From the IMG/VR virus record IMGVR_UViG_3300035661_000237, positions 1 to 31,346 of that record: DNA of 31,346 bases; one strand, written 5' to 3'. Shown here one piece after another: positions 2-28,542 of this stretch; the stretch's first letter is position 1, and every line of letters starts with the position of its first letter. The translations under genes and the position numbers were made by a program. The stretch comes from a virus. Below the pieces are notes generated by a model. It searched no databases. It was not told the origin of the DNA and saw nothing but the letters and a program-made list of their open reading frames with translations.

Positions 2-388
2 ATTAGATTAATGCATAGAAAGCTATCTAATATTCGGAATAACCATTTACATCAAGCAACTACTAAGATAGTGAAAACCAAACCATCAAGAGTAGTTATG
101 GAAACACTTAACATCAAAGGTATGATGAAAAATAAACATTTATCAAAAGCTATAGCACAACAAGGATTATATAGTTTTAAAAGACAGCTTAAATATAAAT
201 GTGAATTTTATGGAATTAAGTTTGTTGAGGCTGATAAGTGGTATCCTTCATCAAAAACTTGTAGTGAGTGTGGTCATGTTAAAACTAAATTATCACTATC
301 AGAAAGAACTTATATCTGTGAAGAATGTGGGGCTATAATTGATAGAGATTTCAATGCTTCAATTAATCTAAGCAGATATTCAGCATAA
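2..388 (+). CDS. tnpB: TnpB (IS200/IS605-type RNA-guided nuclease), C-terminal part, cut by window start
   Basis: The frame is open to the left edge, so this is only the last ~129 residues of a protein usually near 370-400 residues. Visible signatures are the RuvC-II glutamate in a V-V-M-E-T-L-N-I-K-G-M context, a zinc ribbon made of two C-x2-C pairs (CSEC and CEEC), and the RuvC-III aspartate in D-R-D-F-N-A-S-I-N. All expected C-terminal catalytic and zinc-binding residues are therefore intact. By family knowledge TnpB is a transposon-encoded nuclease guided by an RNA (omegaRNA) made from the element's right end, and it favours retention of the element at its donor site. The right-end-like sequence starts only 6 bp after the stop. 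TnpA is not visible and would lie upstream if present. Whether the N-terminal half is intact cannot be judged from this window. Confidence 0.9.
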   Translation: MRLMHRKLSNIRNNHLHQATTKIVKTKPSRVVMETLNIKGMMKNKHLSKAIAQQGLYSFKRQLKYKCEFYGIKFVEADKWYPSSKTCSECGHVKTKLSLSERTYICEECGAIIDRDFNASINLSRYSA

Positions 389-3630: not shown

Positions 3631-5292
3631 ATGACAATGATTAGCAGAGGAATGTTCGTAGACTTTAGCACAGGTTATAATTTTGTTAACCCCAATCTTA
3701 TTGCCTTTGAGGAAATGCTAAATGCCGAGGACGTTCAACGTATACGCAAGTATATAAATAACTGGAATTTTTATGATGGATTTCATTGGCAGAATATTGA
3801 GTCTACAGATAAGCCAGAAATAACTCAGAATTGGTGTCGTAGATTCGTTAATAAGTTTGCATCAGCAGAGTTTTCGGGAGGAGTAGCATGGAAGTTCGAC
3901 CAAGAAATTGAGTCGGAAATTCTACCTTTCTTAGATGATGTGTGGAAAGATAACGGCAAAGATGTTCTGTTCCAAGAGATAGGACAAGCAAAAGGAGTTA
4001 CCGGGGATGTATATTTGCATGTTCATTATGAGCCTAAGATGATTAATGGACAGGTAAATCCCGACTTCGATGACCCTTATGAACTTTACCCTAATGGAAG
4101 AATCAGACTGTTTATAGTACCCCCTAGTATCTGTTTTCCTATTTGGAAAGATGGTTATGATATGGGAACTATGGAAAGTTGTACTATTATGTTTCCCGTT
4201 AGAAAAGACCCTAATGCTTTTGGACTAGGACAAGCAAACCGTTATGAGATTATGAAATACGTTTATACCTCTAATTACATTCAAGTATTTAGAGGTAAAG
4301 ACCTTGTTTCTAGCATGGACAATCCTTATGGAGTTATTCCTATTGTTCATTTCAAGAATCTATCCCTTACTGGTAGACACTTTGGACTATCTGACCTTGA
4401 AGATATTATTCCTCTAAATGTGGAATTAAACTTAAAGTCCTCTGATATTTCAGAGATTATTGACTACCATTCTGCCCCTATTACAGCAATTTTTGGTGCT
4501 AAAGTCACTCAATTAGAAAAAGGCGCGAATAAAGTATGGGGGGGATTGCCGAAGGATGCTAAGATAGAGAATATTGAGTTGAGTGGAGACTTACTTGCGG
4601 CAAATACCTATAGGGACAATATTAAACTTGCCATGCATGAAATTGGAGGAATACCACAGTTCGCATTAGGAGGAGGTAAAATTCCCCGTGTACTCTCTGG
4701 AGTATCTCTACAAATTGAGTTCATGCCTTTATTAGATGTTATCAATGCCAAACGTTCTAATACCGCAAAATCATTAAAAAATGTGAACCGTATTATCCTT
4801 AAAATAGGACAGCAAGAAGGTCTTTTAAAGTTAAGTAAGGACTTTAAGCCCGCTCAAATATATAATATGGATTCAATATTCGGGGATATTCTACCAAAGG
4901 ATATGACGCAGGAACTAGAACAATTACAATCAGAATTTAAAATGGGGCTTGAAACACGCGAAGATGCTTTAAAACGTCTAAAACGTGATAATATCCAAGA
5001 TAAATTGGCCAAAATTGATGCAGAACGTATATCCAATGCTATGGTATTTGGAATAAATCCTGTTGCTATTGCCGCAGGACAAAAGTTAGTCGACCCAGAA
5101 ACAGGTAAAGTTATAGCAGATAATCCTGCTCCTTTATCTGCAATTAGTGAAGGTCAGAACCCTGAGAACAAGGAAAATCCTAATAAACCAGTTGGAACAA
5201 ATAAGTCTGGTAATGATATGAAGGTTAACTCAGGAATAATGAACTTTAACCCAGGAAAGCAGAACCATAAACTGAGTAATTCTGCAAAATAA
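3631..5292 (+). CDS. Portal protein (SPP1 gp6-like)
   Basis: 553 residues, located directly after the large terminase and before scaffold and capsid, as in most tailed phages. The pattern fits the portal family: an N-terminal helical region with N-W-N-F-Y-D-G, a central part with G-V-T-G-D-V-Y-L and G-V-I-P-I-V-H-F, and a long helix-rich middle (V-E-L-N-L-K-S-S-D-I-S-E-I-I-D-Y) that would form the wing/stem. The C-terminal ~60 residues are Asn/Pro/Lys-rich and probably disordered. It forms the dodecameric ring for DNA entry and tail attachment. ATG at 3631 follows GGAGTTGAT; a second in-frame ATG at 3637 is also possible. Confidence 0.88.
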   Translation: MTMISRGMFVDFSTGYNFVNPNLIAFEEMLNAEDVQRIRKYINNWNFYDGFHWQNIESTDKPEITQNWCRRFVNKFASAEFSGGVAWKFDQEIESEILPFLDDVWKDNGKDVLFQEIGQAKGVTGDVYLHVHYEPKMINGQVNPDFDDPYELYPNGRIRLFIVPPSICFPIWKDGYDMGTMESCTIMFPVRKDPNAFGLGQANRYEIMKYVYTSNYIQVFRGKDLVSSMDNPYGVIPIVHFKNLSLTGRHFGLSDLEDIIPLNVELNLKSSDISEIIDYHSAPITAIFGAKVTQLEKGANKVWGGLPKDAKIENIELSGDLLAANTYRDNIKLAMHEIGGIPQFALGGGKIPRVLSGVSLQIEFMPLLDVINAKRSNTAKSLKNVNRIILKIGQQEGLLKLSKDFKPAQIYNMDSIFGDILPKDMTQELEQLQSEFKMGLETREDALKRLKRDNIQDKLAKIDAERISNAMVFGINPVAIAAGQKLVDPETGKVIADNPAPLSAISEGQNPENKENPNKPVGTNKSGNDMKVNSGIMNFNPGKQNHKLSNSAK

Positions 5293-5307
5293 ATTAAAGT
5301 TTTTCAA

Positions 5308-5389
5308 TTAGGTTACTTGTTTAAATGCGGTTTTTATCCTACAATAAAAATCGAGCAAAAAATTTATGGTTTTGTAATAAGTAACCTAA
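5308..5389 (+). promoter_or_regulatory. Nested RNA stem structure in the portal-to-next-gene gap
   Basis: A perfect 11-bp inverted repeat (TTAGGTTACTT 5308-5318, AAGTAACCTAA 5379-5389) encloses a second 10-bp stem (CGGTTTTTAT 5328-5337, ATAAAAATCG 5344-5353, one G-U). It lies just before the ribosome site of the 5416 gene. There is no T-run right after it, so it is not an obvious terminator. It could be a cis-acting mRNA element, a processing site or a remnant. Confidence 0.45.
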
Positions 5390-5415
5390 ATTTTAATTTA
5401 AGGAGTGATACCTCA

Positions 5416-5607
5416 ATGGCTAGTAACGATGAAAACACTGGAGAATTATTCCAAGGTACAGGTAATGATACTCTTGCTGAAATTAAAAGCAAAATGGGAA
5501 TGTCTGAAAAAGTTAAAAAAGGCGGGGCCGATGTATACCGTGAAAATGGACAGTACAATGACTTTTGGAAACCCGTTCAGACTCCTCAGCCTGGTTGGAA
5601 TAGATAA
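5416..5607 (+). CDS. Small protein of unknown function between portal and scaffold
   Basis: 63 residues beginning at ATG 5416 after AAGGAG (5401-5406). An upstream in-frame ATG at 5317 would read through the stem structure and has no ribosome site. The protein is hydrophilic with a helical middle (L-A-E-I-K-S-K-M-G-M-S-E-K-V-K-K) and a proline-rich end. Position suggests a head-assembly accessory, but no family is recognised. Confidence 0.65.
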   Translation: MASNDENTGELFQGTGNDTLAEIKSKMGMSEKVKKGGADVYRENGQYNDFWKPVQTPQPGWNR

Positions 5608-5635
5608 TCTCAATTAATTTGGAGGATAAACACAA

Positions 5636-6417: not shown

Positions 6418-7428
6418 ATGGCTAACTATATTAATACAGTAGTTAATACTGGTGCTTTATCTGGTGGTACTGCCGTTCAGTTGACCAACAACGTTCGTGC
6501 TGTATACAGTAAAGAAATTGAGTTCTACGCTATGCCGATTATGAAATTCCTTCAGTTTGCCAAAATCAAAACTGAATTAGGAGTTCAACCCGGTCTAACA
6601 ATTCAAATGATGACCTACAACAACCTGGCTATGGGCGGAGCATTAACTGAAGGTGTGCGTATGCAGACTCAGGCTCTAAGTTCAAGCATGAAATCCATTA
6701 CTATTGGCGAACAAGGTAACGCTATTGCTGTTACTGAATTAGCCCTACGTGAATCCTTCACGGACGTTATGGCTGATGCCACTACTCTTTTAGGTCGCGA
6801 TATGGCTCTTACACTTGACTGCCAACTACGTGATGTGTGTATTGCTGGAGGAACTACTGGCCCTTACACTACTTCAACAATTTATGGTCGTGCTAACGCA
6901 TCTTCCGCTAAAATTGGGGCAAGAAACCAGATTGTTGCTGGTTCTAATATTCTTTCAGTTGCTACCATTAAGGACGCAGTTGAAATTTTAGCTACTAACA
7001 ACGCACCCAAATTCGGTGGAAGTTATTACGTTGCTTTCTGTCATCCTCACCAGAGCCGTACCCTTCGCGATGACCCTGCGTGGGTTGAAGCAAGCAAATA
7101 CGGTCAACCAGAACAGCTTTTCACAGGAGAAATTGGACGTATTGACGATGTTCGTTTCATTGAAACAACTTTAATGAGCAACGGAGCCGCCGCTACTTCT
7201 GACCCTGGATACAAAGTCGCTCTTGCTGGAGCAGGTTTCTCAGGAGCCAACGTATTCCAAGCAGTTGTTATGGGAGAAGATTACTTTGGATATGCCGTTG
7301 GACTACCTGTAGAACTACGTGATAACGGAGTCATTGACTTTGGTCGTGAACATCAACTTGGATGGTACGCCATTTGGGGTTCTGGTATTCTTCACGCTGA
7401 ACGTGCCGTTATTGTAGAAACTGCGTAA
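6418..7428 (+). CDS. Major capsid protein, N4-gp56 family (HK97 fold)
   Basis: 336 residues after AAGGAGTG. The sequence carries the string pattern typical of the N4-gp56 capsid family: E-I-E-F-Y-A-M-P-I-M-K-F, then G-V-Q-P-G-L-T-I, G-G-A-L-T-E-G-V-R-M-Q-T-Q-A-L-S, G-E-Q-G-N-A-I-A-V-T-E-L, and D-C-Q-L-R-D-V. Later come C-H-P-H-Q-S-R-T-L-R-D-D-P-A-W and G-E-I-G-R-I-D-D-V-R-F-I. No cleavable delta domain is obvious, in agreement with a separate scaffold gene upstream. It forms the icosahedral shell. Confidence 0.95.
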   Translation: MANYINTVVNTGALSGGTAVQLTNNVRAVYSKEIEFYAMPIMKFLQFAKIKTELGVQPGLTIQMMTYNNLAMGGALTEGVRMQTQALSSSMKSITIGEQGNAIAVTELALRESFTDVMADATTLLGRDMALTLDCQLRDVCIAGGTTGPYTTSTIYGRANASSAKIGARNQIVAGSNILSVATIKDAVEILATNNAPKFGGSYYVAFCHPHQSRTLRDDPAWVEASKYGQPEQLFTGEIGRIDDVRFIETTLMSNGAAATSDPGYKVALAGAGFSGANVFQAVVMGEDYFGYAVGLPVELRDNGVIDFGREHQLGWYAIWGSGILHAERAVIVETA

Positions 7429-16764: not shown

Positions 16765-17487
16765 GTGCCAAGAAATATACCCTCAGGTATTTTAACGGGA
16801 CTAGAAGGAAATGAATTAAGTACCAGAATGTTATTAGAAGTTCGCTTAAATTATGATGATGTAGCCGCCGCAGGAAATGCTTTATCTATTATAGAAGGGC
16901 AATATCAATCCGTAGGAATGAATATTGTAGTAGAAAATAATTACGTTGTATTTAGATTTGTGGCGAATGATACTGATAATTTAATTATTCCTGATACTTG
17001 TATAGATTCTAATTATGCTAACCGAATTTATTTCGCGGCGGATATTACGCGAGGTTCAATAGATACTTCTATAGATGGACAAGTAGAAAAGTGTAATGTT
17101 AAAATATCTAATAAGTGGCAGTTATGGGCGGCTGTTTTCGCTAATTGTGGAAACATTATGAATAACCGTCCCTGCGTACTTTTGCAGTATTTTCTAGACT
17201 ATCCTAATGAAGCTCCTATTGTTTTATTTAGCGGAGTGATGAATAATATTCAGATGACTGCAAGTCAATTTGGCTGGGACATCAAACGTAGTGTTGTTGA
17301 CTTTAACGAGGATGGTCCAAATTATACCTATGATGTAGGATGTCAGTGGGTATTTAAGAGTTTTAGATGTGGATATACCGGAAGTGAAACTACCTGTGAC
17401 CGTACTTTAACTAGATGTTTAGCACTTCAAAATGTTATAAACTTTGGAGGACATCCTTCTGTCCCTAGAGAGATGGTAGTTAAATAA
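16765..17487 (+). CDS. Tail tip hub protein, DUF2163 / lambda gpL-like, with cysteine cluster
   Basis: 240 residues, GTG start at 16765 with AAGGAGGAAT; the overlapping ATG at 16763 is in another frame that stops at once. The C-terminal ~50 residues carry four cysteines (C193, C202, C211, C218) in G-C-Q-W-V-F-K-S-F-R-C-G-Y and C-D-R-T-L-T-R-C, then F-G-G-H-P-S-V-P. This is the C-terminal domain of the BR0599/gpL family. In lambda gpL that region is reported to bind an iron-sulfur cluster, and the cysteines are kept here. The protein would form the central hub ring between DUF2460-like and gpJ-like proteins. Its stop overlaps the next start by 1 bp. Confidence 0.8.
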   Translation: MPRNIPSGILTGLEGNELSTRMLLEVRLNYDDVAAAGNALSIIEGQYQSVGMNIVVENNYVVFRFVANDTDNLIIPDTCIDSNYANRIYFAADITRGSIDTSIDGQVEKCNVKISNKWQLWAAVFANCGNIMNNRPCVLLQYFLDYPNEAPIVLFSGVMNNIQMTASQFGWDIKRSVVDFNEDGPNYTYDVGCQWVFKSFRCGYTGSETTCDRTLTRCLALQNVINFGGHPSVPREMVVK

Positions 17488-17888
17488 TGACTAACTTCGA
17501 GGAGTTATTTAAACTTGTGGGAAGTAAATATCAAAAGTATGATGAAAATGGAAAAGCATTGGGGTGTCTTGCCCCGATGTATAGTGCATTTCCCGATGAA
17601 AAGGGGTACCGTTTTGATTGGCCCGAGGGTGTAGATTTGCGAGAATATATGCTCAGCGAACTTGATAAACATTGTGATAGAATACCTTTAGATGATATAC
17701 AGCCAGGGGATTTTTTAACAATGAAAATGCCTAGAGGATTATATCACGTTTCCTTGTATTTAGGCGATGGAAAAATGCTTCATTGTTTAGAGTGCGGAAC
17801 AGAAATTTCGCGAACTATATTATATAAAAATAGGATTGAAAGGGGGTATAGATGGAATGGCAGGAGCCGCAATGAGTTTCTTCTTTAG
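17487..17888 (+). CDS. NlpC/P60-like tail tip peptidase (gpK-like)
   Basis: 133 residues, ATG at 17487 overlapping the upstream stop. The candidate catalytic Cys is C27 in A-L-G-C-L-A-P and the His is H87 in L-Y-H-V-S-L-Y-L-G-D-G; Q-P-G-D-F-L (72-77) is the usual strand before the His. The cysteine context is G-C-L-A rather than the common D-C-S-G, so activity is less certain. By family knowledge such proteins cut peptidoglycan cross-links or assist tip assembly. Its end overlaps the gpJ-like gene by 32 bp. Confidence 0.75.
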   Translation: MTNFEELFKLVGSKYQKYDENGKALGCLAPMYSAFPDEKGYRFDWPEGVDLREYMLSELDKHCDRIPLDDIQPGDFLTMKMPRGLYHVSLYLGDGKMLHCLECGTEISRTILYKNRIERGYRWNGRSRNEFLL

Positions 17889-22214: not shown

Positions 22215-22727
22215 ATGGCAACTCAATGGACTGACTCTGTAATTCAAAAAGGTGGTGGCACAAAAGTAAGTCCGAAGCACATTACTGAACTTCGTTCAGC
22301 AATTGTTGCAGAGGAAACTCGCAGAAATGTTGCCGTAAGTGGGTTTAATGATACTATTGCTATAGGAACTCCTGTTAAAAAAATGCACATTGATGATTTA
22401 CGCACTGCTTGTAAAACAATTAATAGTTCTAACTTTACGGATGATACTATTGTAATAGGTAATACGGAAGTTAAAGAAGTGCATATAGACGAATTACGTC
22501 TTAGAGTAAACACTTATGAATCTTATAGCCCCGGTGCTTTTTCTCCTCATGGATGCTCTGCCGCTTGTACCGGATTTTGCACCAGTTGCACTAATGCTTG
22601 CACCAGTTGCACCAGTTGCACTAATGCTTGCACCAGTTGCACCAGTTGCACTGGTTGCACCGGTTGCACCAGTTGCACCAGTTGCACTGGGACATGTACT
22701 GGTACTAATTCTGGAGGTTCACATTAA
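22215..22727 (+). CDS. Phage structural repeat protein with C-terminal Cys-Thr-Ser repeat tail; candidate radical SAM substrate
   Basis: 170 residues, ATG after GGAGATGAA, 17 bp downstream of fibre A. Residues 1-100 contain three repeats with motifs H-I-T-E-L-R (22-27), H-I-D-D-L-R (58-63) and H-I-D-E-L-R (90-95), each preceded by a G-T/N-x-V turn; this repeat is familiar from phage tail and adhesin proteins. From 114 to 161 there are 15 cysteines spaced 3 or 4 residues apart (C114, 118, 122, 125, 129, 132, 135, 139, 142, 145, 148, 151, 154, 157, 161), mostly as C-T-S-C, with Asn-Ala or Gly variants. It ends in a Gly/Ser-rich tail. Three radical SAM genes follow, so the cysteine tail is probably crosslinked as in thioether RiPPs. 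Zinc or Fe-S binding or disulfides are alternatives. The substrate role is inference. Confidence 0.8.
   Translation: MATQWTDSVIQKGGGTKVSPKHITELRSAIVAEETRRNVAVSGFNDTIAIGTPVKKMHIDDLRTACKTINSSNFTDDTIVIGNTEVKEVHIDELRLRVNTYESYSPGAFSPHGCSAACTGFCTSCTNACTSCTSCTNACTSCTSCTGCTGCTSCTSCTGTCTGTNSGGSH
22578..22691 (+). repeat. In-frame tandem DNA repeats (30-bp and 9-bp units) encoding the cysteine tail
   Basis: Two identical 30-bp units (22578-22607 and 22608-22637) are followed by six 9-bp units of TGCACCAGT type (22638-22691), with ACC/ACT and AGT/GGT changes. All unit lengths are multiples of three, so slippage would add or remove cysteines without breaking the frame. Confidence 0.95.
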
Positions 22728-22742
22728 AGGGGTGAATTTTAA

Positions 22743-23279
22743 TTGACTTTTAGTGCATTAAATTTTATTAATTACTACGATGCTTCGCTTGAAGTAAATA
22801 GGGATAATTTAATCGTTATCCTTACTCAAATCACTCCTGCTTTAGTAAAAGAATATCAATCTATTATAACTTCCTTGGTAGAGTCTGATATTTCAGCAAT
22901 AAACTCCTACATCTCCAACCAATATATTTATAAAGTTGTTTCGATTATGTTGGATGCTAATAATAAACTTAGCCGTGAACAGGGAATTATAATAGTGCAG
23001 ATTATGAATATGATTAATGCAGTATATCCTGTCTTTTCATATTTGGTAATTACTGAGTTATTAGCAAGCAATGACCCTGACAATTTTTCCGTCGCCAGAG
23101 ATTTGATTGATAATCATTTATTAAGTTCTAATCTATCTACCTCAGAAAAGATTAACCTGTTACTTTTCCAAGTGCAAATAGAAATGATATTAGCCTCTAA
23201 AGAAGGCCGCGCAATAGATAGAATGTTGTTGCAAAAGAGTCTTAGCCTAGTTAATGCGTTACGTGCAGATGAAAAATAA
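22743..23279 (+). CDS. All-helical protein of unknown function in the radical SAM cassette
   Basis: 178 residues, TTG start at 22743 with AAAGGGGTG upstream. The sequence reads as successive amphipathic helices (L-V-K-E-Y-Q-S-I-I-T-S-L-V, I-N-L-L-L-F-Q-V-Q-I-E-M-I-L) with no cysteine and no recognisable winged-helix precursor-binding domain. It lies between the Cys-rich protein and the first radical SAM gene and overlaps the latter, so coupled expression is likely. It might deliver the substrate, act as a chaperone, or regulate the cassette; none of this is shown by the sequence. Confidence 0.75.
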   Translation: MTFSALNFINYYDASLEVNRDNLIVILTQITPALVKEYQSIITSLVESDISAINSYISNQYIYKVVSIMLDANNKLSREQGIIIVQIMNMINAVYPVFSYLVITELLASNDPDNFSVARDLIDNHLLSSNLSTSEKINLLLFQVQIEMILASKEGRAIDRMLLQKSLSLVNALRADEK

Positions 23280-24126
23280 CATAGTAGCTATTCACTTAAC
23301 AGATAGATGTAATATGCGTTGCACTTATTGTTATCTTAATAAGGGTAAGTCGGACACTAAATATTCCGATATTAAAGAAGTTCTCCACCGTATGGATTTT
23401 GATTCATTGTTTTTATATGGTGGAGAACCCCTCCTATGTATGGATACTATAAGAAAAATTGCGTCAGAAACAGATAAGCAGTTATGGTTGGAAACTAATG
23501 GATTGTTATTGCCGAAGCATATAGAGGAATTATTGCGTATTAATATTCGTCCTTTTGTATCCTTGGATAGCTTTGATTATGAGATTAATTGTAGATGCCG
23601 CCCTATGCGACCTAATGAGTTTAATGATTTAGTTTCGGTTATTAAGGAATATAAGCTGGATATTATTAATAATATTTACGCAGGATTAAGAGGAACGAAG
23701 GAATTTTACAATACGTGTAAGCAGTTAGGTATCAAATGCGACACATACCCTGTCATTACCCCTCAGAATTGTGAAGATGTATCTTGTATAGAAGAACTCC
23801 CGATTGATGTTTTAGTATTTCTGGGGCGACACCAGACACCTCATACGCGACCCAAGTTGCGCCTTCATGTTGATGGATATGTTTCCCGTATTTTTGACCC
23901 CGGAAGTATGCGAATTTCCCATATATCTAAATGGGAGCCGAGAATGGAATCTCTGGGGGAACTGCCCTATCCTAAATCTTGCGAGTCTTGTGAAGTATTT
24001 GGCAAATGTATGTTCTTATCTTACTTCTGTTATTGGGCGTGGATATATGACCAGATGGGAATTTTGCATGCTTCGTTTGGGTGTAAGGCAAGTAAAGCTA
24101 TTTATAGGAGAAGATTTGATGTATAA
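23269..24126 (+). CDS. Radical SAM protein 1 with half SPASM-type cysteine set
   Basis: 285 residues from ATG 23269, whose start overlaps the upstream stop; an ATG at 23254 is an alternative, and neither has a good ribosome site, so translation is probably coupled. The radical SAM 4Fe-4S motif is C14-x3-C18-x2-C21 (T-D-R-C-N-M-R-C-T-Y-C-Y), followed by G-G-E-P (51-54) for SAM binding and E-T-N-G. The C-terminus has C238-x2-C241-x5-C247-x6-C254-x17-C272. This matches the second half of a SPASM domain, while the usual first-half Cys after D-G is absent (H-V-D-G-Y-V-S-R). It may therefore hold fewer auxiliary clusters than its neighbours. It likely modifies the Cys-rich protein or assists the other two. 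Confidence 0.85.
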   Translation: MKNNIVAIHLTDRCNMRCTYCYLNKGKSDTKYSDIKEVLHRMDFDSLFLYGGEPLLCMDTIRKIASETDKQLWLETNGLLLPKHIEELLRINIRPFVSLDSFDYEINCRCRPMRPNEFNDLVSVIKEYKLDIINNIYAGLRGTKEFYNTCKQLGIKCDTYPVITPQNCEDVSCIEELPIDVLVFLGRHQTPHTRPKLRLHVDGYVSRIFDPGSMRISHISKWEPRMESLGELPYPKSCESCEVFGKCMFLSYFCYWAWIYDQMGILHASFGCKASKAIYRRRFDV

Positions 24127-25168
24127 CCGCTATAAGTCGCACGAAACAATAGCAATTATTATTACTAAAATGTGTAATTTGCGTTGTAAATATTGCTTTG
24201 AAGATGACCACTCAGTAGAGCATGTAGATGTAGATAAGGTAAAAGAAACATTAACTTATCTATTAAGCCTACCTCCAGCAAGGGAGCAAGTTCTATATTA
24301 CTTCTTTGGTGGAGAGCCTTTCCTAAGAATTGATGAAGTTATTGAATTAGCGGATTTTATCCATGAGAAGGAAACAAGACCTTACCAAATTTTATTCTTC
24401 ACCAATGGAACACAATTCGGTAACGAAAAAGTGCGCAAGTTTATAGAAAGGGACAAAGAGGAGAAGCAAATTGTCATTTCTATAGATGGATGCCCCGAAA
24501 CCCATAATGAATATAGATGTAATTCCTTTGACACTATAATGGAATATTTCTGGTGGTGGAGAAAGTTATTTCCCGCAGAAAGAGTTAGAGGAACAATGAC
24601 ACCAGAAACCATAGTCGATTTATTCAAGAATTTTAAGTATATGTACCAAGTTCTTGAGTGTCGAAACTATATTGAGATTGAGTTTGCTCATGGCCCTGGA
24701 ATTGCGTGGAAGGATGAACACTGCGCTATCTTAGAAGGACAGTTAGAGCAGATTGCCGACTACCTTCTTGGAATGAACAATCCTCCCGAATTTAGTATGT
24801 TCAAACGTTATAGCTCTCTTTTAATAGGAGAACAAGCACAATGCGGATGCGGAGTGCTGTACAAAGGAATTGACGTAGATGGAACCATTTATCCGTGTTC
24901 TGGATTTGCCGCAGAAAGAATGTATCCTCTTGGTAAGACCATTGATGATGATAAGATTGAACCTTTTAGATTCGTTGGATATGCTAGAGGTAAAGAGTGT
25001 CTTGACTGTGAATTAAGACTTATGTGCTTTGAATGTCCATATGTCAGGTATAAAATTAACAATAGTATTTTTGAAAACACTCCGATAACATGTAGCGCAA
25101 CCAAAGTTATAGCCAAAGTTGCAAAGTCTTATTTTGAAAGGAGTAATAAACTTGATTATAAAGTGTAA
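24119..25168 (+). CDS. Radical SAM / SPASM peptide maturase-like protein 2
   Basis: 349 residues; ATG 24119 has TAGGAGAAG upstream and overlaps the previous stop by 8 bp. The longer open frame to 23867 lies inside the previous gene. The core motif is C19-x3-C23-x2-C26 (K-M-C-N-L-R-C-K-Y-C), then F-G-G-E-P (63-67), F-T-N-G and S-I-D-G. The SPASM region is complete: C242/C244, D-G-T-I-Y-P-C260, C294-x2-C297-x5-C303-x2-C306, C325. Enzymes of this build install Cys-to-carbon thioethers or C-C links in peptides, or modify sulfatases. With a Cys-repeat protein in the same operon and no sulfatase, peptide crosslinking is the better guess. Confidence 0.9.
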   Translation: MYNRYKSHETIAIIITKMCNLRCKYCFEDDHSVEHVDVDKVKETLTYLLSLPPAREQVLYYFFGGEPFLRIDEVIELADFIHEKETRPYQILFFTNGTQFGNEKVRKFIERDKEEKQIVISIDGCPETHNEYRCNSFDTIMEYFWWWRKLFPAERVRGTMTPETIVDLFKNFKYMYQVLECRNYIEIEFAHGPGIAWKDEHCAILEGQLEQIADYLLGMNNPPEFSMFKRYSSLLIGEQAQCGCGVLYKGIDVDGTIYPCSGFAAERMYPLGKTIDDDKIEPFRFVGYARGKECLDCELRLMCFECPYVRYKINNSIFENTPITCSATKVIAKVAKSYFERSNKLDYKV

Positions 25169-25628
25169 GGATTCAGAAGTTTATACTAAAGTTCTTCAGG
25201 CAATTGGGTGCAAAGAGTACAATATTGATTTAGATGTAACTGTGGATGATTTCCGTATTTATGATTCTGAGTTAAAAAAGGTTGCAAATTTAATATATGA
25301 CAATTATAATGTAGGTATAGAGGTAGCAGTAAATGTCATCACTGATTTGCTGACTGCTAGTGAAGTAACTATACCAATGGAACATGAAGAATTTGCACTA
25401 TTCTGCAAGCATTGTCCTTGCTATCAATGCAAACCTGACCCCGATTTATTTGAATCTGTTACTGGAGATAGGTATTTTCCTCCGAAGAAGTTTTGCGAAA
25501 AATCATTCGTGGAGTTGGATGCATCTAGATATTTAATTAATAAACTGGAACTTGATTTAGGAGTTTCCGACATATCCTTTGAGGAATTTAGAGATGTAAT
25601 ACACGCATATTATGGGGCGGTGATTTAG
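25152..25628 (+). CDS. Small cysteine-cluster protein of unknown function in the radical SAM cassette
   Basis: 158 residues from TTG 25152, which has AAAGGAG 8 bp upstream and overlaps the previous gene by 17 bp. A helical N-terminal part with C5 and C20 precedes a compact cluster C85-x2-C88-x-C90-x2-C93 plus C115 (F-C-K-H-C-P-C-Y-Q-C), well suited to bind zinc or an Fe-S cluster. The C-terminal third is acidic and helical. It sits between radical SAM genes 2 and 3, so a role as an electron carrier, scaffold or substrate-binding partner is plausible. A second, minor substrate is also possible. No family recognised. Confidence 0.75.
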   Translation: MIIKCKDSEVYTKVLQAIGCKEYNIDLDVTVDDFRIYDSELKKVANLIYDNYNVGIEVAVNVITDLLTASEVTIPMEHEEFALFCKHCPCYQCKPDPDLFESVTGDRYFPPKKFCEKSFVELDASRYLINKLELDLGVSDISFEEFRDVIHAYYGAVI

Positions 25629-26707
25629 TGCCGTATAAAAAAGCATTAATGGCTGATGAATTTCCTTGCACTAAAACTATAACATTTATGGTAACTGAGG
25701 AATGTAATCTTAGATGTTCATACTGTTATGAAGAAAATAAATGCCACAAAACTATGCCCTTTGACATAGCTAAAAGGGCAGTAGATTTATTATCCCCTGA
25801 TTTTAAAGACTCCGGTAAAATCTATTGGGAGTTTATTGGTGGGGAACCCCTTCTGGAGATAGATTTAGTTGACCAAATTACTGACTATATTCTGCAAAAG
25901 TCCCATAAGGAGTCATGGAAAAGTCAGCAAGTATTCTTCATTACTACTAATGGGACTTTACTTGGCGATGAAAAAGTGCGCAAATATTTATTAAAAGATA
26001 AGTGCAAAAAGAGTGTAGGACTTTCCTTAGATGGACCTAGAGATGTGCATAATATAAATAGATGTGATTCATGGGATGTTGTTATGGCTAACTTTGGATG
26101 GTGGAGAAGAAACTTCCCTTGGTGTACAACCAAGTCTACAGTTAGTCAGAACACACTTCCTCATTTATTTAGAACTATCAAGTTCCTTACTGACCTGGAA
26201 TTAACCGACATTTTTATCAATCTCATATATGAAGCTGAATGGACGGATGAAGATGCCGCGATATATTATGACCAATTAATTTTAGCGGCAGATTATCTCA
26301 TAGACTCTGGAGTTTATGAAACATCAAATGTATCTCTATTCCATGAACTGCTGAACACTGACAACTTTAATAGAAAATCTGGATGGTGCGGATGCGGAAA
26401 TTCCATGTTAGCAATATCTCCAGATGGAGGAATTTACCCCTGTCTACGATTCTATACCGGAAAGGATTGGATAGTCGGGGATGTATGGAACGGAATTAAT
26501 AATGAACGAATTACTCCATTCCAGTATTGTCATAATGAACGTAATTCTGAATGTCGGGACTGCGAATTATTGTGCAAATGTCCTCATTGTTTAGGATGGG
26601 ATTATCAATCAACCGGGAGTATTTTTAACCGCTCAACTAATATCTGTAAGATGTTTAAGGCTCAAGTAAAAGCTAATCAGTATTTCTTTGGGCGCATTAA
26701 TAAATAG
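25628..26707 (+). CDS. Radical SAM / SPASM peptide maturase-like protein 3
   Basis: 359 residues, GTG at 25628 sharing one base with the upstream stop and preceded by GGGGCGGTGAT. Core motif C26-x3-C30-x2-C33 (E-E-C-N-L-R-C-S-Y-C-Y), G-G-E-P (71-74), T-T-N-G and S-L-D-G. SPASM cysteines are C254/C256, D-G-G-I-Y-P-C272, C309-x2-C312-x3-C316-x-C318-x2-C321 and C340, a denser arrangement than in protein 2. It is clearly a paralogue of protein 2 (shared G-D-E-K-V-R-K / G-N-E-K-V-R-K and W-W-R-K/R segments) but diverged. Probably acts on the same Cys-rich protein at other positions or residues. Fibre B starts 12 bp later. Confidence 0.9.
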   Translation: MPYKKALMADEFPCTKTITFMVTEECNLRCSYCYEENKCHKTMPFDIAKRAVDLLSPDFKDSGKIYWEFIGGEPLLEIDLVDQITDYILQKSHKESWKSQQVFFITTNGTLLGDEKVRKYLLKDKCKKSVGLSLDGPRDVHNINRCDSWDVVMANFGWWRRNFPWCTTKSTVSQNTLPHLFRTIKFLTDLELTDIFINLIYEAEWTDEDAAIYYDQLILAADYLIDSGVYETSNVSLFHELLNTDNFNRKSGWCGCGNSMLAISPDGGIYPCLRFYTGKDWIVGDVWNGINNERITPFQYCHNERNSECRDCELLCKCPHCLGWDYQSTGSIFNRSTNICKMFKAQVKANQYFFGRINK

Positions 26708-26718
26708 GAGGAATTAAA

Positions 26719-28542
26719 TTGGCGCAAACCTTCGTCAATACTATACCTAATTCGGGTTCAAATATATTGCAAACTGCGGTAGATAGTAGAAACAATGAAC
26801 TTGCTTTACAATCTAATTTTAGTGGAACTTCTTTTCCAGGTAGTGCTGTAGCAGGACAGACTTGTTATAGAACTGACTTAAATGCGTATTTTACATTCAA
26901 TGGAATACTGTGGGGAGAAACTTTCTTAAGTTCCACTATGGGAAGGGATATAAAAACGGCATATGGAAGTATGTCTAATTTAACAAATAGATTAAATGTT
27001 TCTTTAAATGCAGATGGAAGTTTAAAACTTCCTGCTGTTATGAACTTTTCGTCATGGATTGATTTAAACCAATCTTATACCTATGTAAGTGCTAATTCAT
27101 TCACAATACCGGGAGATTGGACGGGAACACTTACTCCGGCAAAACCCCTTCGTCTTACTTGCAATGGAGCCTTTGTTTACTCTTATGTAGCTTCTATTGC
27201 ATACGCAGCAGGGGTATCAACTGTTACAACTCTCGACTCTACTCTTGTTTCTCCAATTACAGCACTACAATATGGAATACTGGATAATTATGTAGGAAAT
27301 GCTAAAGGAATTATATTCACCCCATCTGGTAATATTACTTCCTATACTGTGCAAGATGCTTTAGTAGAATTGGATGCAGAAAAATTAGCCAATACTACTT
27401 CTTTTACAGGGGATTTTAACTTAAAAAGTACTGGAGGATACTACGTAACTAGTACAACAGGGCAATCCAATGCCCCCAATTCAACTGATACTTTCTTGTT
27501 GTCGGTAATGTCAAACATATCAAAGACCTTTGTTGTTCAACAAGCTGTAGGATTAACTTCTGGAGTAATATATAACCGTCAGTATAATACTGGGGCATGG
27601 AGTGTGTGGGATGTAATGCCTACAATGGGAACATTACCTACTACTAACCGTAACCGCATAATCAATGGAGATATGAAAATTGCGCAAAGAGGAAATACCC
27701 AAGCATTATCAAGTTCTGCCGCTTATGGAAGTTTGGATAGATGGTGGGCATTAATGTCTAATTCTGCCGCAGGGTCTGTTAATGTTGTAGCTATATCTGA
27801 CTTAGTAGGATATAGTAGTTGCGCTAAATTAAATAGAACTAGTGCTTCTGCATTAACAAATTCTATACTATTTGGACAAATAATAGAGAGTGCTAACTGT
27901 TATTCACTTCAAGGTAAAACAGTAACATTATCATTTTATGCTAAAGCTGGGGCAAATTTTTCTTCATCTTCTGGGGTATTAAATTCTTTTATAGTAACCG
28001 GAACGGGTGTAGACCAAGGATTGTCATCTTTATCCGCTTCTACTTGGACAGGACAGACTACTGCAAGCACTAAGGCAAATATACTTACCACTTCTTGGCA
28101 GAGATTCACACAGACAGTAACTTTGGGAGTAAATATTTCAGAGATTTCCGTCCAGTTTGGATTTACTCCTGTGGGTACTGCTGGAGCAGATGATTCCTTT
28201 TATATTACAGGAGTGCAATTAGAAGATGGATATACTGCTACTGCGTTTGAATTTTTACCTGTTTCACATATGATTAATTTATGTTTAAGATATTATGAAA
28301 GACTGACCCTTCATGTTAGAACTTATGCCGCCGCGGCTGGTTCTCATGGTATACCTGTAAGTCATACTTCTAAAAGAGTAATTGCATCTTCTAGTGTAAT
28401 TACAGCCCCCACATATACTAATGCTTCTGCTGCAAGTTGTACTCCTGAGGGATTAAATACAGCATATATTCTTTTTTCAATGTCAGCGGCAGGTAACTCC
28501 TCCATTACTGGATACGTTGTTGGATTAGATGCGGAATTATAA
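26719..28542 (+). CDS. Tail fibre protein B
   Basis: 607 residues, TTG start at 26719 with AGGAGGAATT. The N-terminal ~230 residues repeat the module of fibre A (T-A-V-D-S-R-N-N-E, N-A-D-G-S-L-K-L, G-N-I-T-S-Y-T-V-Q-D-A-L). The C-terminal part has N-R-I-I-N-G-D-M-K-I-A-Q-R-G, the aromatic jelly-roll-like body and V-Q-L-E-D-G-Y-T-A-T-A-F-E-F-L-P, a combination common in receptor-binding phage tail fibres with a carbohydrate-binding fold. Shared N-termini imply that A and B dock at equivalent sites on the tail tip. Confidence 0.85.
   Translation: MAQTFVNTIPNSGSNILQTAVDSRNNELALQSNFSGTSFPGSAVAGQTCYRTDLNAYFTFNGILWGETFLSSTMGRDIKTAYGSMSNLTNRLNVSLNADGSLKLPAVMNFSSWIDLNQSYTYVSANSFTIPGDWTGTLTPAKPLRLTCNGAFVYSYVASIAYAAGVSTVTTLDSTLVSPITALQYGILDNYVGNAKGIIFTPSGNITSYTVQDALVELDAEKLANTTSFTGDFNLKSTGGYYVTSTTGQSNAPNSTDTFLLSVMSNISKTFVVQQAVGLTSGVIYNRQYNTGAWSVWDVMPTMGTLPTTNRNRIINGDMKIAQRGNTQALSSSAAYGSLDRWWALMSNSAAGSVNVVAISDLVGYSSCAKLNRTSASALTNSILFGQIIESANCYSLQGKTVTLSFYAKAGANFSSSSGVLNSFIVTGTGVDQGLSSLSASTWTGQTTASTKANILTTSWQRFTQTVTLGVNISEISVQFGFTPVGTAGADDSFYITGVQLEDGYTATAFEFLPVSHMINLCLRYYERLTLHVRTYAAAAGSHGIPVSHTSKRVIASSSVITAPTYTNASAASCTPEGLNTAYILFSMSAAGNSSITGYVVGLDAEL

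Follow-up and report, generated by a model that had tools for sequence, protein, structure and literature searches.

Gene cassette and neighbouring genes

The window, the whole stretch of DNA analysed here, corresponds to a 31,346-base virus record. An ORF at 22215-22727 on the plus strand, with an ATG start and a GGAG upstream, encodes a protein of 170 aa (P0001). It belongs to a cassette whose genes are all located on the plus strand (Table 1).

Table 1. Features of the cassette and of the adjoining genes in the window
Feature	Position	Strand	Basis or remark
Fibre/appendage-like gene, 400 aa	20995..22197	+	phrog_20658 'head decoration', E 1e-13, residues 283-393
N-terminal ELR domain of P0001, three repeats, predicted helical	22215..22553	+	HMM of other loci; AF2
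Cys array of P0001, 15 Cys, residues 114-161	22554..22697	+	opens with conserved CxxxCxGxC
DNA tandem repeat inside array	22577..22687	+	TRF
178-aa protein without Cys	22743..23279	+	no family in Pfam, NCBIfam and PHROG searches
Radical SAM protein 1, CNMRCTYC	23269..24126	+	PF04055, E 5e-15; without SPASM match
Radical SAM protein 2, CNLRCKYC	24119..25168	+	PapB model 117.9 bits, TIGR04115 115.6 bits
Companion protein	25119..25628	+	partial TIGR04119 'CXXX repeat peptide maturase' match
Radical SAM/SPASM protein 3, TIGR04115 relative	25628..26707	+	TIGR04115, 293.4 bits
Tail fibre-like gene directly behind cassette	26719..28542	+	phrog_4492 tail fiber protein, E 4e-30

Protein 3 was compared with three family models and stayed below the cut-off of each: TIGR04115, 'radical SAM peptide maturase, CXXX-repeat target family' (293.4 bits, E 3e-87, cut-off 350), the PapB model NF047865 (190.8 bits, cut-off 340) and the SCIFF model TIGR03974 (133.5 bits, cut-off 425). 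It contains the radical SAM motif CNLRCSYC and a SPASM domain (PF13186, 22.0 bits, cut-off 21.5), and the solved structure most closely related to it is 5wgg (E 2e-24), which we take to be CteB, the SCIFF maturase. The companion protein reached 45.3 bits with TIGR04119 (E 6e-12), below the cut-off of 150, and showed 30% identity with 6486-6995 of locus L276 (E 5e-13); L-numbers denote the loci collected from viral and bacterial scans in this analysis. Radical SAM protein 1 showed weak similarity to 4723-5610 of the same locus (E 4e-8). The start of radical SAM protein 2 was placed at the ATG of 24119 within an ORF beginning at 23867, and the bit scores in Table 1 are those of the long ORF. The 178-aa protein occupies, by gene order, the same position behind the array gene as proteins of 140-200 aa in other loci; phmmer comparison with these same-position proteins returned only the self-match, and no homology was found.

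The fibre/appendage-like gene lies between the tail-tip region, labelled from gene order, and the cassette. Genes further upstream were labelled terminase, portal, tape measure and tail tip from order and size alone; a PDB search with two other window proteins (labelled tail tip and terminase) gave nothing at E 0.001, and that with 17487-17885 gave two weak NlpC/P60 matches (E 0.009). At the left end of the window (2-388), the C-terminal part of a TnpB/transposase-like zinc-ribbon protein was recognised by eye.

Cys-array protein of the window

Residues 1-113 of P0001 comprise three repeats of about 35 aa each with the form [F/W]xD...G...HxxELR. The motifs are HITELR at residue 22, HIDDLR at 58 and HIDELR at 90, that is, two exact HxxELR and one variant (HIDDLR). 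The protein contains 16 Cys, 15 of which are located in residues 114-161 together with 14 T, 8 S, 4 A, 4 G, 2 N and 1 F. The union of HxxELR-type repeats with a tail of 15 cysteines, reported in a preliminary description of this DNA, is therefore present in the ORF. That description also gave the array a period of three. The spacings of the array Cys are, in order, 4, 4, 3, 4, 3, 3, 4, 3, 3, 3, 3, 3, 3 and 4, so that the period is right for nine of the 14 spacings and wrong for the five of four residues, and the array is a mixed CXX/CXXX array.

A run of 15 Cys was reached in none of 100,000 shufflings of the whole protein (maximum 7) and in none of 100,000 shufflings of the tail only (maximum 9). 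The array start, CxxxCxGxC, was invariant at C114, C118, G120 and C122 in an alignment of 21 sequences.

Within the array DNA, TRF revealed tandem repeats of 9 bp (11.7 copies) and 30 bp (3.5 copies). The array Cys codons are 13 TGC to 2 TGT, a bias opposite to that of 13 other window ORFs (36:81). The tandem repeat and the codon bias suggest recent growth, and the array was probably expanded through DNA repeats. A frame-shifted ORF of 76 aa rich in V, A, L and P (22516-22746, plus strand) crosses the array, the same trap as in the jumbo-phage annotation described below.

P0001 found no match in Pfam or NCBIfam (the latter searched to E 1), only chance-level matches in PHROG (best E 0.31), and none in INPHARED by tblastn.

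ELR-domain family

Related loci were collected by a scan with P0001, then by alignment scans with protein 3 and with the ELR domain, and by a scan of bacterial genomes. The single sequence of protein 3 retrieved no loci, and the alignment queries found them. An HMM built from 19 ELR sequences of other loci, trimmed of their Cys part, recovered P0001 from a set of 4141 sequences (residues 1-112, E 2.5e-5), with the next unrelated sequence at E 0.31.

The search for proteins with similar N-terminal repeats, suggested in the preliminary description, yielded 45 distinct ELR proteins, the window included. A run of at least 8 Cys was found in 44 of them, the sole exception being an 83-aa fragment of L260 whose array is read in the adjacent frame, and for 40 the enzyme was present in the same locus. 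Relatives that keep the protein and the enzymes and lack the cysteines had been named as counter-evidence; within this family, which was gathered starting from array proteins so that more distant array-free forms may be missed, none was seen apart from the frame-split fragment.

The closest relative was L276, with 41% identity in the ELR domain over 107 aa (E 1e-21), 43% in protein 3 and 30% in the companion-like protein. Identities with the window were 32% (ELR domain) and 41% (protein 3) in L277, and 39% and 35% in L326, both with an array; L125 showed 44% in protein 3 and contained a pair of array proteins as well as two further radical SAM genes. The ELR domain precedes the array in most loci and stands behind it in L001/L129, L128, L130, L131, L134, L136 and L147. 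Array proteins of the family reach 350-940 aa. The spacings in the related phage arrays are dominated by four (1149 of four, 364 of three and 19 of five).

Judged from these comparisons, the predicted proteins form a large family in which a helical ELR domain and a Cys-Xaa2/3 array are encoded beside a TIGR04115-related radical SAM/SPASM enzyme. The phage family is apparently undescribed: a literature search, subscription papers aside, found no account of phage ELR/Cys-array proteins and none of radical SAM or thioether cross-linking tied to phage tails.

A pattern scan with CTxCTxCTxC was abandoned as a family finder; it returned at least 119 stretches in viral contigs, and among the matches listed most were low-complexity frames and only L059 was recognised as a relative.

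Predicted structure

AlphaFold (AF2, 21 sequences) predicted helices at residues 20-36, 56-69 and 88-103 of P0001, with pLDDT of about 90 over most of 20-105, and left the array unstructured (pLDDT about 44). The preliminary description had argued from a period of three to a rod with cysteines on one face. This geometry was not borne out by the mixed spacings and the low pLDDT of the array, and a strict period-three rod or beta-helix was also rejected as a rule of the family, since spacing four dominates the relatives.

Foldseek against the PDB found no match to P0001 at E 0.001. The best VIA-align match, TssK 5m30 (Z 3.8, rmsd 3.7 over 90 residues), was not counted as a fold relative, and the best BFVD match was an unnamed viral protein (E 3e-3). 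The ELR repeats thus matched no convincing PHROG or Pfam family, solved fold or viral fold in these searches.

Tail context and domain fusions

Chosen upstream neighbours in 24 loci were scanned against PHROGs. At least one neighbour of the tail category was found in 16 loci (L160, L125, L163, L137, L133, L135, L141, L143, L242, L256, L257, L258, L136, L147, L128 and L156), and no tail PHROG was found among the scanned neighbours in the other eight (L132, L263, L244, L152, L253, L162, L138 and L248). In the Anaerobacterium chartisolvens locus (L160), the Cys protein comes after genes for, in this order, a baseplate hub, a tail protein, a baseplate wedge, a baseplate/tail protein and a tail fibre, and it is followed by two small proteins, a radical SAM gene, endolysin and holin.

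Several array proteins are fused to other domains. In L277 a GDSL esterase (E 6e-26) is joined to the ELR domain and array, and a baseplate J gene lies upstream of the fusion; in L125 an RCC1 propeller is fused to the array (E 3e-27); and in L276 (3636-4751) a Hint domain (PF05203, E 1e-9) stands behind the Cys array.

By predicted gene content, P0001 is encoded among tail genes, as indicated by the phrog_4492 gene behind the cassette and by the 16 of 24 related loci. The case for the repeats as a virion domain would rest on gene position together with the domain fusions, and we place the array protein in the virion with moderate confidence.

Association of enzyme and array

The loci of three viral scans were pooled, identical enzymes were grouped, and each was scored with the family HMM; an array was counted when a run of at least 10 Cys was found in the locus DNA examined. 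Arrays were located near the enzyme in 57 of 66 distinct groups scoring at least 250 bits and in 7 of 8 groups between 125 and 250 bits. The distant radical SAM enzymes below 125 bits, which served as control, had an array in 0 of 15 groups, with one run of 8 Cys on the opposite strand in L328. The 23 loci of one scan had been found via the ELR domain and not via the enzyme; because they were chosen in this way, they are biased towards arrays and not towards enzymes. Loci without an enzyme match were placed in no band (L334, L336, L337, L249, L251, L252 and L260), and L260 contains ELR domain and arrays but no such enzyme within its record of 31.8 kb.

The nine misses at 250 bits and above comprise L295 (a run of 7), L302 (contig end) and seven groups of TAG-recoded phages (L146, L148, L149/L150, L151, L153, L155 and L157), in which no array was found in the locus DNA with TAG read through. 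A close TIGR04115-like enzyme, its gene containing TAG codons in frame, is retained in these TAG-recoded phages. Phass-1, a phage listed under a 'code 15 clade', has an 8-Cys ORF beside its enzyme (L271 7832-8065).

In many loci a protein of about 100-110 aa is encoded directly before the enzyme. An HMM of this protein gave 25 matches at E 0.01 or lower in the gene set of 43 loci (11 built the model) and no match in the window, and in L248 (4371-6005) the protein is fused to the N-terminus of the enzyme (544 aa). We consider it a candidate substrate-binding partner.

The array might instead be an unmodified segment rich in disulfides or binding metal or Fe-S, with the radical SAM enzymes serving something else. 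The Cys-x2/3-Cys spacing would suit metal binding, and in the flanks of the CTDC arrays L002, L003 and L004 no radical SAM gene was noticed. Such an explanation leaves aside that the arrays accompany the TIGR04115-like branch and not the distant radical SAM enzymes, and that the array start motif and composition are common to bacterial CXXX targets. Disulfides would also be unlikely before release from the cytoplasm if the host is an anaerobe. We regard an unmodified array as unlikely. That the array is a substrate is the reading we prefer, and the argument that protein 3 acts on it is, in our judgement, strong.

Cultured jumbo phages

Through tblastn with protein 3 or its L137 relative, radical SAM genes were revealed in jumbo phages of Salmonella, Erwinia and Cronobacter. 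All seven that were inspected (SEGD1, SPN3US, Asesino, pEa_SNUABM_29, phiEaH2, Machina and CR5) contained two array ORFs with 20-21 Cys each, which adjoin virion genes and a pair of radical SAM genes. In SPN3US the pair is formed by genes 0163 and 0164, and the best-matching models of its radical SAM protein 1 were TIGR04115 (125.6 bits) and PapB (113.6 bits). The arrays showed no clear ELR match; in a two-sequence search two of the N-termini gave E 0.011 and 0.032.

These arrays are obscured in the annotations. In SPN3US (JN641803, 143409-144229) the array ORFs lie on the minus strand at about 143416-143817 and 143831-144229; gene 0166 was called over one of them in a different frame, no gene is annotated for the other, and in SEGD1 (L262 14152-14882) gp169 and gp170 overlap the arrays in another frame. 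According to PMC10052503, the 2023 proteomics search of SPN3US used 273 annotated proteins and fixed Cys carbamidomethylation; a search so designed would hardly see the arrays. The term 'radical SAM' is absent from the main texts of PMC5105663, PMC5694885 and PMC10052503. A 7 kDa virion protein, gp172 (PMC5694885), was considered as an array product of SPN3US and set aside, as it is absent from the JN641803 gene table at 136000-156000.

The SPN3US arrays have the radical SAM pair on one side and gene 0167 on the other; gene 0167 carries the annotation virion structural protein and is followed by gp168-170. The products gp168-170 were detected in virions and are baseplate or tail fibre candidates (PMC5694885). 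This arrangement bears on whether the modified array protein could be a cytoplasmic protein of host takeover or of the lysis stage, encoded late and not part of the virion. The cassette also borders endolysin and holin genes in several loci (L160, and L001 by eye), as such a role would lead one to expect; yet the direct fusions to GDSL esterase and RCC1 domains, the position behind fibre and baseplate genes, and the SPN3US arrays adjoining gene 0167 near virion-detected proteins (PMC5694885) all speak against it, and we judge it very unlikely. A tail component remains our preferred reading of the array protein.

Bacterial relatives

An array ORF with a run of at least 7 Cys was found in 69 of 80 bacterial loci. 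Eight loci of the bacterial scan carried both ELR domain and array (L159, L160, L162, L163, L164, L187, L201 and L223) and were taken for prophages or phage contigs; L160, L162 and L163 of these were among the neighbour scans above. The make-up of the array is alike in bacterial and phage proteins, with S or T after Cys and Gly at +2. A Tat-type motif, RRxF[FL], was present in the first 90 residues of 56 of 73 distinct non-ELR arrays (bacterial loci L166-L238) and of none of the 45 ELR proteins, P0001 included. Bacteria may thus move the modified array out of the cell along a pathway known to accept folded cargo, and phages may have replaced the Tat-type leader by a tail-region domain.

These leaders also invite another explanation, in which the ELR domain is a recognition leader only and the modified array is cleaved and released from the cell as a free RiPP, such as a bacteriocin or a superinfection or signalling peptide. 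The enzymes are of the RiPP-maturase kind, and the bacterial relatives are mostly peptides with Tat-type leaders. The ELR domain, however, is distinct from the bacterial leader and is found either before or behind the array, unlike an ordinary leader, which argues against recognition as its only role. Array proteins of up to 350-940 aa and the fusions to GDSL and RCC1 domains also fit poorly, and neither protease nor transporter was noticed in the window cassette. Release as a free peptide seems to us improbable, and we continue to favour P0001 as a modified part of the tail.

In Margulisbacteria/Termititenax contigs (L226 and L228-L231), proteins of 500-660 aa contain array runs of 42-69 Cys, which stand behind a segment resembling the ELR domain by eye. 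A 6.8-kb record named 'Bacteriophage sp.' (L264, MT837480) contains a CXXX locus with an RRxFF leader and may be bacterial DNA.

Proposed role and comparison with known systems

We think it fairly probable that a phage-borne cassette of radical SAM enzymes modifies P0001 as its substrate, the protein being most likely a tail (fibre or baseplate) component. The ELR domain would be a small helical module for attaching P0001 to the tail, and the Cys-T/S-x array behind it would be the modified part. Protein 3 and its partner proteins would recognise the array start (CxxxC-x-G-x-C) and link cysteine sulfur to nearby residues, most likely by ranthipeptide-type thioethers to T, S, N or G neighbours. 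A flexible chain of Gly, Ser, Thr and Cys could in this way become a compact, protease-resistant stalk or tip on the virion. By analogy with the characterised maturases, we hold thioether chemistry on the array with moderate confidence; a role of the modified array as stalk or adhesin is a weaker suggestion. The preliminary description had compared the protein with a RiPP precursor. Its substrate part is retained here for an unusually large protein joined to a tail-region domain, with maturase-type enzymes adjoining, and its period-three geometry is dropped.

The nearest known systems are the CXXX-repeat systems (TIGR04115, TIGR04117, TIGR04114 and TIGR04119). They have in common with the window the enzyme branch and the companion, the Cys-x2/3 array with S or T after Cys, and the array start CxxxCxGxC. 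Measured against a Cys at every fourth residue, the window array has +4 in 5 of 14 spacings and +3 in 9 of 14. The bacterial CXXX targets of the loci collected here are mostly short with Tat-type RRxFF leaders where the window has a phage tail-region domain. Two phage relatives exceed the TIGR04115 cut-off of 350 (L137, 362.0 bits; L160, 458.5 bits). With the target models TIGR04114 and TIGR04117, P0001 gave no match at E up to 1 and the phage L137 target reached 17.1 bits (cut-off 50); three bacterial targets reached 35-45 bits for TIGR04117, below the cut-off, and one passed TIGR04114 (32.2 against 20). Since enzyme and companion stay below their cut-offs and the target models do not match, the window cassette is better regarded as a CXXX-like variant than as a family member.

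Ranthipeptides (SCIFF CteA/CteB and PapA/PapB) share related radical SAM/SPASM maturases and multi-Cys substrates. The window has neither a Cys-X3-Asp motif nor a six-Cys-in-45 precursor; P0001 is a full-size protein of structural type. The SPN3US genes 0163/0164 and their kin resemble the window in a TIGR04115/PapB-like enzyme, in Cys arrays (two) and in adjoining virion genes, and differ in lacking a clear ELR match, in arrays unannotated in frame and in two radical SAM genes against three.

QhpD, of the quinohemoprotein amine dehydrogenase, forms Cys-Asp/Glu links in an enzyme subunit; it is not known to act on a repeat array or to occur in phages. It is a precedent for radical SAM cross-linking of a real protein subunit, and a Cys-Thr thioether occurs in SCIFF peptides, both according to PMC8326336. 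PapB forms Cys-X3-Asp/Glu links, tolerates a variety of Cys-Xn-Asp motifs and can place its links in line or nested (PMC9413430).

Radical SAM maturases have been described for small secreted peptides and for a few enzymes; in many phages this enzyme branch now proves to be associated with a protein of structural type encoded in the tail region. We know of no capsid or tail structure with such cross-links. If the reading is true, the phage would assemble part of its virion by a chemical trick so far familiar from small peptides of bacteria. We might speculate further, with rather more doubt than belief, that many tailed phages (gut siphophages, P2-like prophages, and jumbo phages such as SPN3US) bear a radical-SAM-stapled polythioether rod on baseplate or tail fibres. 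Such a rod would form a new class of virion component, covalently cross-linked through a RiPP pathway directed at the virion, and would have been overlooked because gene callers misframe the arrays and proteomics assumes free cysteines. A real modification would bear on virion stability, on host binding and on the making of stapled protein rods, and the cultured phages with related genes make the modification reading testable now.

Other arrays and enzyme genes

An intein interrupts the radical SAM gene in L059 (3006-5381, minus strand) and L154 (2362-4734, plus strand) (PF14890, E 3e-9, LAGLIDADG), and, judged by eye, the insertion follows immediately on the final Cys of the CxxxCxxC cluster motif. 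Strict CTDC-type arrays with a period of three were observed in viral contigs L002, L003, L004 and L016, and in the listed DNA of these contigs no radical SAM gene was noticed; they are perhaps another kind of Cys array. Q/D-rich arrays (CQTCYTGQCATCETCDSC) were found in L310, L313, L316, L318 and L320 beside more distant radical SAM enzymes (132-164 bits), and these loci represent a further branch.
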